DNA of 35,804 bases from Dictyobacter arantiisoli (GTDB lineage: Bacteria; Chloroflexota; Ktedonobacteria; Ktedonobacterales; Ktedonobacteraceae), in NCBI RefSeq assembly GCF_008326305.1, contig NZ_BIXY01000076.1, positions 1 to 35,804 on the forward strand. Direction: 5' to 3'. Below are positions 3,051-27,747 of this stretch, piece by piece (within the stretch, counting starts at the first letter, position 1; the number at the start of each line of letters is the position of its first letter). The notes beneath the pieces were generated by a model. The model did not search any database. It was not told the origin of the DNA and saw nothing but the letters and a program-made list of their open reading frames with translations. A program made the position numbers and the translations under genes.

Positions 3051-3225
3051 AGAGAGTGTCAGCCTCCCAATGCCATCGGGATCTTGCTGCTCCCTTTTTA
3101 GTATGTGGTGCAGAAAAGGTTCGAAGAACCTTTTCTGCACCACATACTAAAAACTGTTTTGAGCACCGTAGGTGCGAAAACTCATGCACAGAGATGGTGG
3201 AGAGCATGGGAGTCCAACACTCTCT
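3051..3225. mobile_element. Palindromic MITE-like element, copy 1 (175 bp)
   Basis: Imperfect terminal inverted repeats bracket the unit: AGAGAGTGTCAGCCTCCCA at 3051-3069 and TGGGAGTCCAACACTCTCT at 3207-3225. Inside is a perfect palindrome with 28-bp arms (3095-3122 and 3126-3153) around GAA. The flank at 3159-3210 (GAGCACCGTAGGTGC, then GCATGGGA) recurs in inverse orientation at 27210-27263. The palindrome begins with T5 and ends with A5 on both strands, the reverse of an intrinsic terminator. A small ORF across it reads only because the repeat is open in that frame. Confidence 0.75.
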
Positions 3226-3233
3226 AAAGCCCT

Positions 3234-3286
3234 TTTAGCGCTACCACTGAAAATATCGCTGCGATATTTTCAGTGGTAGCGCTAAA
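3234..3286. repeat. Perfect 26-bp-arm palindrome with a 1-base centre
   Basis: Arms at 3234-3259 and 3261-3286 are exactly complementary around a single T at 3260. The outer ends are TTTAGCGC and GCGCTAAA. The sequence differs from the neighbouring 28-bp palindrome but has the same T-outside/A-outside polarity. It lies 8 bases beyond the element at 3051-3225 and may be a second family member or a nested insertion. Confidence 0.8.
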
Positions 3287-9329: not shown

Positions 9330-11078
9330 TTGTTAGATAATGCTATAAAAAGTTCTGGCACACCTCTAGCGGCCGAATCTCTTTCTGAGTCAGCGCATAA
9401 AATTTCTCTCTGGCCTCTTCTCTGTTGTGCAGGTGTGTTTCTTCTCAGTATTTTATTCAGTATATCAGTATTTTATTCATTCGCTGGTTTCTCTACCCAT
9501 AACTGGATTAGTTTGAAATTGAAATGGTTCGGCAGTTGGATTCCCGTCTATCTGGGATCAGCTCCCCATGATGTGTTCCATCTCAAAGAGGCTGGCTTCA
9601 TTGAGTGGATGGTTTTGCTGGCGTGTATGACTATTGCTTATGCACTGGCTGCCTTTTTCATCTATCGCCAGGCCCGAGAGGCTACCACTAAAACTATCCT
9701 GGCCTTCATTTTTGGCGGCGTAATCATTGCTGCTTTACTCTACCTGTTTACGCCCGCCATGGTGACGACCGATATCTTTTCCTATGAGAATTATGGTCGC
9801 CTTCTGAGTGTCCATGCTGCCAATCCATATTTTGTACCACCTAACGCTTATCAAGGTGATGTATCATTACAATGGGTATTTAAGGCATATAGAAATGTTG
9901 TCTCCATTTATGGGCCAATCTGGACATTGGTGAGTAGCCTCCTATCCGGGTTCTCAATTACACAAATGGGGATGATCATCGTATTTCGCGGTTTCGCGAT
10001 CTTGTGCCACCTTGCCAATATTGTGCTGGTGATCGCTACCTTACGCATGTTGAAGCGTTCGCCACGCGTGGTGCTACTTGGCGCTTTCCTTTACGCCTGG
10101 AATCCTCTGGTATTGCTGGAAGCTTGCATGAGTGGACATAACGATGTGTTTATGGCCTTCTTCATGTTGTTGGGATTATACTTTTGTGCCCGGGGCGAGC
10201 GTAAAGGAACGTTTACACAATGGCGTAGCTATATACCGGCAATACTGGCCTTTACTGCCTCTGCCCTCGTCAAGTTTAGTTCTGCTCCGCTTCTCATCAT
10301 CTTTGTGCTGGCATTGTTCTTCGCGAAAGTTCATGCAGATAGTAAAGATGGCAAGCTAATCTGGCGTCCCGCGCTTGTGCCAGCGTTGCTGGCAAGTTGC
10401 ATCTGTATCGTGTTTGCGCTTGCGCTCTATGCTCCCTTCTACAGTGGACATAGTGTTCAGGCCATTATCTCAAGTGTGACCAATCTGCCATCGGCCACGC
10501 AATCGCAGAATTCGATACTGGCTACCTTTTTCTACTACAATGAAGCGCATCGTTTGCATGGGATAGTAACTATCCTGAATAGCCGCAAACTATGGAATAT
10601 ATTGAATATTGTGGGCTTGCTATTGCCGATTATGGTGGGGTGTCGATATCTGTGGCGTACGCCTGACACGCGTACCATTGCGCTGGTCACCTTAGCCTCT
10701 CTGGGTGGTTTCTTGCTCACCTCTCCCTGGTTCTTCTCCTGGTATCTGGTATGGGTAATGATACTGATTCCCTTTTGCTTACCGGTACAAAAGGAGCGTC
10801 TGGCGCGTGCTCTCCTGGCGTTTGGACTCTCATTTTCGATTACCTGTTTCCTGGCATATTACACCTCCACTGTTGGCTGGCGGCTTGCTGCGATGAAACC
10901 GGCATCGGATAGCTGGTCGATCTGGCAAAATCTTGGCATGTTTGTTATTCCACTCCTTGCCTTTCTCATCTTCTGGTTCTATCCACCACGGAATGCCAGG
11001 GTAGAGCAGGAGCTTGAGCCACAAGCCATTTCCGCTTTTTCATCTATAACCGCTTCTGCTTCTGCTGATCCTCAGTAA
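9330..11078 (+). CDS. Polytopic GT-C mannosyltransferase-like protein (MptB/GT87-like)
   Basis: A 582-residue membrane protein with about 13 hydrophobic segments. The first large loop has 'TTDIFSYENYGRLLSVHAAN' followed by 'PYFVPP', then 'SIYGPIW'. This D..SY..YGR...NPY...YGP pattern is typical of polyprenol-phosphate-mannose-dependent alpha-mannosyltransferases; D148 is the candidate catalytic acid. It is expected to add mannose (or another hexose) to an envelope glycolipid or glycan on the outer face of the membrane. The start is TTG at 9330, about 10 bases after AGGAGA; no ATG or GTG fits. It ends inside the left arm of a 30-bp terminator palindrome. The sugar and acceptor cannot be told from sequence. 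Confidence 0.8.
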   Translation: MLDNAIKSSGTPLAAESLSESAHKISLWPLLCCAGVFLLSILFSISVFYSFAGFSTHNWISLKLKWFGSWIPVYLGSAPHDVFHLKEAGFIEWMVLLACMTIAYALAAFFIYRQAREATTKTILAFIFGGVIIAALLYLFTPAMVTTDIFSYENYGRLLSVHAANPYFVPPNAYQGDVSLQWVFKAYRNVVSIYGPIWTLVSSLLSGFSITQMGMIIVFRGFAILCHLANIVLVIATLRMLKRSPRVVLLGAFLYAWNPLVLLEACMSGHNDVFMAFFMLLGLYFCARGERKGTFTQWRSYIPAILAFTASALVKFSSAPLLIIFVLALFFAKVHADSKDGKLIWRPALVPALLASCICIVFALALYAPFYSGHSVQAIISSVTNLPSATQSQNSILATFFYYNEAHRLHGIVTILNSRKLWNILNIVGLLLPIMVGCRYLWRTPDTRTIALVTLASLGGFLLTSPWFFSWYLVWVMILIPFCLPVQKERLARALLAFGLSFSITCFLAYYTSTVGWRLAAMKPASDSWSIWQNLGMFVIPLLAFLIFWFYPPRNARVEQELEPQAISAFSSITASASADPQ

Positions 11079-11138
11079 GCAAACAAACAAAAAGAAGGGA
11101 TCTCAAGTTTGAGATCCCTTCTTTTTGTTTGTTTGCTT
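11077..11138. terminator. Bidirectional terminator, perfect 30-bp arms
   Basis: Arms at 11077-11106 and 11109-11138 match exactly around GT. The stem core AAGAAGGGATCTCAA is preceded by AAGCAAACAAACAAA and followed by TTTTTGTTTGTTTGC, giving T-rich tracts in both directions. It serves the glycosyltransferase (rightward) and gyrA (leftward). The TAA of the glycosyltransferase contributes the first two bases of the stem. Confidence 0.9.
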
Positions 11139-15909: not shown

Positions 15910-15976
15910 ACATCTTCAACTATGAATTTTCGCAATCTATCATGAAAAATGATCAGAGATGACAGGGCGGCTATAT

Positions 15977-16018
15977 AAAAAGAAGGTGTAGATGCGTTAG
16001 CATCTACACCTTCTTTTT
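15977..16018. terminator. Bidirectional terminator between convergent genes
   Basis: A perfect 19-bp stem (15977-15995 with 16000-16018) with loop GTTA. It starts AAAAAGAAGG and ends CCTTCTTTTT, so each direction ends in a T-run. It separates the PH-PASTA gene (rightward) from the RlmD-like gene (leftward). Confidence 0.9.
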
Positions 16019-16039
16019 ATGGGATGGATGGGAATGAGT

Positions 16040-27161: not shown

Positions 27162-27201
27162 TCCTCGTACAGTTCCCTTTTAGCTCAGTCTATTGGCTGA
27201 T

Positions 27202-27516
27202 AAAGTGTTTGATTCCCATGCTCTCCACGATCTCTGTGCATGAGTTTCGCCCCTACGGTGCTCAAAAGGGTTTTAGTGTGTAGTGCAGAATATGTGCTTC
27301 GCACATATTCTGCACTACACACTAAAAAAGGCCGCCCACCTATGGCCTTCGCCATCCTGGCGCATGAGTTTTCGCACCAATGGTGCTCAAACAGATTTTT
27401 ATTATGTGATGTAGAAAAGGTTCTTCGAACCTTTTCTACATCACATAATAAAAAGGGCGCAGGCGCGCATGCGCCTGCCAGCAGGTATCCTGATGGTGAT
27501 GGGAATCAAACACTTT
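27202..27516. mobile_element. Composite palindromic MITE-like element (315 bp) with 18-bp TIRs
   Basis: Perfect terminal inverted repeats AAAGTGTTTGATTCCCAT (27202-27219) and its complement (27499-27516) bracket the unit. Inside are two related sub-units. Each has a 'GCATGAGTTT..CGC' to 'GGTGCTCAAA' segment followed by a perfect long palindrome: arms 27271-27297/27301-27327 and 27396-27423/27427-27454, both around TTC. A shorter GCAGGCGC/GCGCCTGC hairpin follows. The palindromes and their left flank match the element at 3051-3225 in inverse orientation. No transposase is encoded. An apparent 101-codon ORF here merely reads through the repeats. Confidence 0.8.
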
Positions 27517-27575
27517 GTGAGCGATTTACATGTCTCCTGGGCTAGGGTCGTTTTTTCAACCCAGGAGACTTTCGA

Positions 27576-27595: not shown

Positions 27596-27665
27596 AGCGT
27601 TCGAGCGAGTTTTTAAAATGTGGTGTGGGATAAAGCGGCTTATGAGGCGGGTCTGCTAAAGAAGT

Positions 27666-27747
27666 GGGGCGAGAGGGAGTCGAACCCTCACAGCCTTTCA
27701 GCCGGGAGATTTTAAGTCTCCTGCGTCTACCATTCCGCCATCGCCCC
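27666..27747 (-). tRNA. tRNA-Leu (anticodon UAA)
   Basis: An 82-base tRNA with acceptor stem GGGGCGA/TCGCCCC, D-arm with GGTAGA, anticodon stem GGAGA/TCTCC around CTTAAAA (anticodon TAA), a long variable arm typical of class II tRNAs, and T-arm GAGGG-TTCGACT-CCCTC. The 3' CCA is not encoded. It decodes UUA and, by wobble, UUG. Confidence 0.96.

Follow-up and report, generated by a model that had tools for sequence, protein, structure and literature searches.

The element at positions 27202-27516 of the sequence analysed here (positions 1 to 35,804 of a Dictyobacter arantiisoli contig, hereafter the window) is very probably a fused form of a high-copy IS5-type MITE with a core of three hairpins, whose long central palindrome is kept perfect through copying of one arm onto the other at the DNA level. 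Copies with the same ends and target duplications are present throughout the host genome, an IS5-family partner carries the same termini, and the palindrome arms change in mirrored fashion while their loop occurs in both orientations.

The fused element and its copies in the host genome

Two perfect palindromes with arms of 27 and 28 bp lie within 27202-27516 (20 shuffles of the window gave no arm longer than 10), bracketed by perfect 18-bp terminal inverted repeats at 27202-27219 and 27499-27516 and having a leading segment in common (80% identity over 30 nt), as the initial annotation had described. The element was also described there as having no ORF of its own; a mechanical 101-aa ORF crosses it (27240-27545) and has no signs of a gene. 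The true edges lie one base further out on each side and are followed by a TGA duplication. The description as one composite element stood only in part; ends and palindromes are real, but they belong to two fused copies of a single-palindrome MITE of approximately 201 bp. Blast matches to the family in the host genome begin at query base 138 (27339) and unit 2 lacks its first ~16 bases, and the window element therefore consists of two units joined with loss of their inner ends. Further fused dimers were found at two other loci (L051 and L056). The features of the window are as follows.

27198..27200, no strand: target-site duplication TGA, left copy (from sequence; the S-TNN-S rule holds in 44/64 units)
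27202..27219, plus strand: left terminal inverted repeat AAAGTGTTTGATTCCCAT of unit 1, identical to the termini of the resident IS5-type element
27245..27264, plus strand: short hairpin (SH) of unit 1, TTTCGCCCCTACGGTGCTCA, an imperfect copy (from sequence and family consensus)
27271..27327, no strand: central perfect palindrome of unit 1, 27-bp arms, loop TTC (palindrome search)
27328..27345, no strand: fusion region, join near CTATGG; unit 1 has lost its right end and unit 2 its left terminal repeat
27370..27389, plus strand: short hairpin (SH) of unit 2, TTTCGCACCAATGGTGCTCA (from sequence and family consensus)
27396..27454, no strand: central perfect palindrome of unit 2, 28-bp arms, loop TTC (palindrome search)
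27459..27478, plus strand: third, GC-rich hairpin GCAGGCGC-GCAT-GCGCCTGC of unit 2 (from sequence and family consensus)
27499..27516, minus strand: right terminal inverted repeat ATGGGAATCAAACACTTT of unit 2, perfect
27518..27520, no strand: target-site duplication TGA, right copy (from sequence)
3053..3223, minus strand: second family member in the window, a 171-bp unit with a palindrome at 3095-3153 (28-bp perfect arms), GC hairpin lost

Among the 18 copies that have the stem type of unit 2, the loop reads GAA in 12, and the window copy reads TTC. Other structures were observed in the window, including a tRNA-Leu gene (anticodon taa) on the minus strand at 27664-27747, ~150 bp from the element, and an additional perfect palindrome of unrelated sequence at 3234-3286 (25-bp arms, TTTAGCGCTACC..., loop TGC) that adjoins the MITE copy at 3053-3223. 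Long perfect palindromes at 11077-11138 and 15975-16020 lie between convergent ORFs and resemble bidirectional terminators, with an A-rich start and a T-rich end.

In the host genome (7.2 Mb in 256 contigs), blast matched the element ~100 times, and the terminal repeat was present at 167 sites with ≤1 mismatch, compared with 0 for the reversed control. Both ends were present in 64 of the 95 palindrome-bearing units examined (the fused window unit left out), so that the palindromes are neither confined to this site nor found elsewhere only without their ends, the two outcomes that would have spoken against the initial annotation. A unit opens with an end repeat and a spacer, continues with the short hairpin TTTCGCACC-NNN-GGTGCTCA, the ~59-bp palindrome and the GC hairpin, and closes with a second spacer and end repeat; 38 of the 64 two-ended units are exactly 201 bp long. 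The unit is small, has no transposase gene and occurs in many copies, as expected of a MITE of the IS5 family. The target duplications that the initial annotation had suggested seeking were found not only at the window element; an exact 3-bp duplication flanks 44 of the 64 two-ended units, compared with a mean of 9.1 and a maximum of 21 when left and right flanks were permuted (5000 trials), and is absent in the remaining 20. These duplications are mostly TNA, with C or G usually standing between duplication and repeat, and tandem units with one trinucleotide in common are frequent in the host genome.

No placement bias relative to genes was seen for host-genome units with long flanks in longest-ORF context (convergent gaps 10/37). 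A second, cruder ORF pass, with gap lengths uncorrected and nothing concluded from it, suggested more divergent gaps in Ktedonobacter (14/24) and more convergent ones in the host (15/35). A second small palindromic family, GCTCGACTTTGTACA...TGTACAAAGTCGAGC (~95-120 bp), often adjoins the MITE (L106 ~180-300, L107 ~430-560 and L104, on contigs 68, 123 and 12). At L107 both elements have the trinucleotide TGG in common at their joints, and the second family may therefore be another IS5-type MITE with the same targets.

IS5-family partner and probable mobilization

In the host, a longer element with the terminal repeats of the MITE is represented by its two termini at ten contig ends, its middle being unassembled. 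Read by eye, one terminus begins a transposase reading frame and the other holds C-terminal coding sequence. Complete copies of ~1.08 kb in D. kobayashii encode an IS5-family transposase in two overlapping frames (PF13340, PF01609, NF033580), and their duplications (TTA, TGA, TTA) are of the same type as those of the MITE. The full-length partner envisaged by the initial annotation was thus recovered, as termini in the host and in complete form in a relative. The D. kobayashii MITEs bear the terminal-repeat variant of that species' own IS, and Dictyobacter relatives have units of ~200 bp with exact duplications TTA, TAA, TGA and TTT. A covariance model found units in all five Dictyobacter genomes, with 60 scored in the host and 60, 56, 52 and 5 in the others, and gave weaker matches in a second genus, Ktedonobacter. 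The TNA duplications would fit the IS1031 subgroup of the IS5 family, for which such duplications are the rule.

Because ends and duplications match, the MITE is probably mobilized in trans by the resident IS5 transposase. Acting on the common ends, this enzyme would spread the MITE and create the 3-bp TNA duplications. An inserted unit is bounded by S-TNA-S, so that insertion beside earlier copies is to be expected; unit boundaries may themselves serve as targets and give rise to tandem arrays, and fused dimers such as the window element could arise where the repeat-repeat junction of two neighbouring units is lost. The suggestion of recent mobility made initially is borne out by the many copies with the same ends, their 3-bp duplications and the IS5-family transposase element with those ends.

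Symmetric change in the palindrome arms

In 69 palindromes of 59 bp, the two arms of a copy disagreed at 0.67% of sites, compared with a difference of 16% between copies, and 29 different perfect stems were present. The arms stay perfect while their sequence changes, in agreement with the active correction proposed in the initial annotation. In 24 diverse units, 14 of 28 stem pairs had changed on both sides, and the central helix contained 85 double-changed cells as opposed to 1 single-changed cell, with almost no G-U intermediates. The residual arm mismatches were of G-T and A-C types equally. Certain positions within the stem are invariant (TTTTTANTNTNTNNTG...).

Counted over all perfect palindromes, the loop is found in either orientation (GAA 22, TTC 13; ATA 9, TAT 8), and the copies C33:44433 and C35:12507 differ from C148:201 solely in the loop (ATA/TAT). 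Contigs that end in the IS have 120-123 bp in common, approximately twice the length of the palindrome, and since this overlap exceeds the palindrome, misassembly is an unlikely cause of the loop orientations. In these units the two terminal repeats are separated by ~160 bp and disagree with each other at 16% of sites, indicating that only closely spaced arms are corrected. Whole palindromes have been swapped between copies with near-identical flanks, which indicates that conversion between copies also occurs; such exchange would replace whole palindromes and could explain part of the arm pattern. One copy (L078, C14:57733) has a left arm of one stem type and a right arm of another and is apparently an uncorrected recombinant of two copies.

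Outside Dictyobacter, the family was recovered in part, as Ktedonobacter has the hairpin and palindrome but lacks the IS5 ends at these modules. Of 47 genomes of the class, 9 contained the exact short-hairpin motif, all of them Dictyobacter or Ktedonobacter, and the controls gave no hits. A palindrome follows the 20-nt hairpin motif in 53 of 59 cases in these two genera and in 0 of 25 chance occurrences in other taxa. The Ktedonobacter palindromes have arms mostly of 26-35 bp that are usually perfect and nearly always differ in sequence. The core of short hairpin and long palindrome is probably older than the MITE, because it is common to Ktedonobacter without the ends.

Modules flank one gene region on both sides in K. 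robiniae, Ktedonobacter sp. SOSP1-85 and K. racemifer, and there the species differ by 3-5% over 3.3 kb with nearly unchanged flanks. At one site the orthologous palindromes differ by substitutions and a 2-bp indel, all mirrored between the arms, and the loop is inverted (AGA/TCT); at the other, many mirrored changes and a mirrored 1-bp indel accompany an unchanged short hairpin. A single asymmetric arm mismatch, in SOSP1-85, was present among these orthologous palindromes. The gene between the two inverted module copies (L286, L287 and L288), which lie at orthologous places in the three species, encodes a putative membrane protein with an FHA-like start that appeared PrsW-like by eye.

Explanations for the arm symmetry and comparison with known systems

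Template switching has a published signature, namely homogenized arms combined with an inverted spacer (PMC8604942). The three hairpins (short hairpin, long palindrome and GC hairpin) would form the cargo of the MITE, and one palindrome arm would be rewritten from the other. The likeliest route is a template switch during replication at an extruded hairpin, an event that would also invert the 3-nt loop. The family may well have no host function. A pure mutation process would nevertheless require neither invariant stem positions nor an exact length of 201 bp, and some selection on sequence or length is therefore likely. As the invariant positions and the conserved short hairpin both suggest selection, a function of the core is conceivable. 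In a further reading, which we consider unlikely, the short hairpin and the hypervariable, nearly always symmetric palindrome are a functional DNA element of the Ktedonobacteraceae that is recognised by structure and not by sequence, an enzyme that processes hairpins being one candidate. This element would have stayed at fixed loci in Ktedonobacter, whereas in Dictyobacter an IS5 MITE would have taken it up as cargo.

Covariation often passes as proof that an RNA helix is functional, and the stem covaries strongly, above shuffles, within a very stable fold (z -12.6 as RNA, -14.3 as DNA). These properties would suit a structured non-coding RNA or RNA processing site with a stem under selection for RNA base pairing, a reading we regard as improbable. 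RNA helices are commonly thought to change via G-U intermediates (PMC8794818), which are nearly absent here given the single one-sided cell against 85 two-sided ones, and neither the equal occurrence of G-T and A-C mismatches nor the loop in both orientations agrees with such selection. The lack of gene-relative placement bias in the host genome also argues against it, as does the Rfam scan, in which the element gave only chance matches (microRNA precursors and similar) below gathering scores, with no family at threshold, and nearby only tRNA-Leu reached its score. Template switching can imitate compensatory evolution in RNA stems (PMC8794818), and the mirrored changes and loop inversion fit DNA-level arm copying better than RNA selection.

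Less probable still is a REP/REPIN-like family whose short hairpin is the recognition site of a Y1 (RAYT) transposase responsible for its spread. The conserved short hairpin, high copy number and intergenic location are like those of REPs, and Y1 transposases were found in 6 of 7 genomes searched; however, K. robiniae has 29 exact hairpin motifs yet no Y1 match, and the motif is absent from the Y1 loci retrieved, on which grounds the link was rejected. Moreover, no GTAG tag precedes the hairpin, whose conserved 5' neighbour is GCATGAG-TTTTCGC, and the Dictyobacter ends and duplications are of IS5 type.

That the arms are perfect merely because the copies are young can be given almost no weight; the same stem recurs in 18 of 69 palindromes, but the 29 different perfect stems, the 16% divergence between copies and the mostly perfect arms of truncated units (20/27) do not accord with it, and the symmetric change of orthologous Ktedonobacter palindromes at fixed loci argues strongly against it. 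A bidirectional transcription terminator spread for its function is equally hard to credit and was rejected, since, although long hairpins do stand in intergenic gaps, a T-run lies before the stem and an A-run after it, the wrong polarity on either strand for an intrinsic terminator, in which a T-run follows the hairpin, and convergent gaps are not enriched.

The preferred reading of a MITE subject to arm copying can be set beside several known systems. Our search of the open-licence literature on Ktedonobacter repeats found no paper describing this MITE/palindrome family, and no Rfam family corresponds to it. Correia/NEMIS, ERIC and RPE repeats measure roughly 100-200 bp, and we know of no hypervariable self-matching centre in them. 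They resemble the present element in being palindromic repeats of such a size (PMC10969869). REP/BIME/REPIN elements with TnpA-REP (PMC8266576) are also intergenic, present in many copies and provided with a short conserved hairpin, whereas the present element lacks the GTAG tag and a linked Y1 gene and has IS5-type ends and duplications. The closest counterparts in mobility are the IS5-family MITEs (PMC10969869), which are likewise short, high in copy number and intergenic, without a transposase, and have short target duplications and terminal repeats common to a resident IS5-family element. In contrast to these, the present element is mostly exactly 201 bp, has a central perfect palindrome with coevolving arms and a flipping loop, and its core is also found in another genus without the ends.

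With respect to the arms, template-switch systems (PMC8604942, PMC8794818) show the same multi-base mirrored changes, short spacers and loop inversion, even of TTC/GAA. The spacer inversions of PMC8604942 are in yeast genes, at single loci where the arms measure 10-16 bp, and PMC8794818 concerns RNA genes, unlike the many palindromic copies described here, with arms of 22-36 bp in two bacterial genera. This natural series of many palindromes, some at orthologous loci, whose strong covariation appears to result from DNA arm copying, calls for caution in structured-RNA discovery within palindromic repeats. With loop flips as an internal marker of arm copying, it also offers a bacterial case for measuring template-switch rates.
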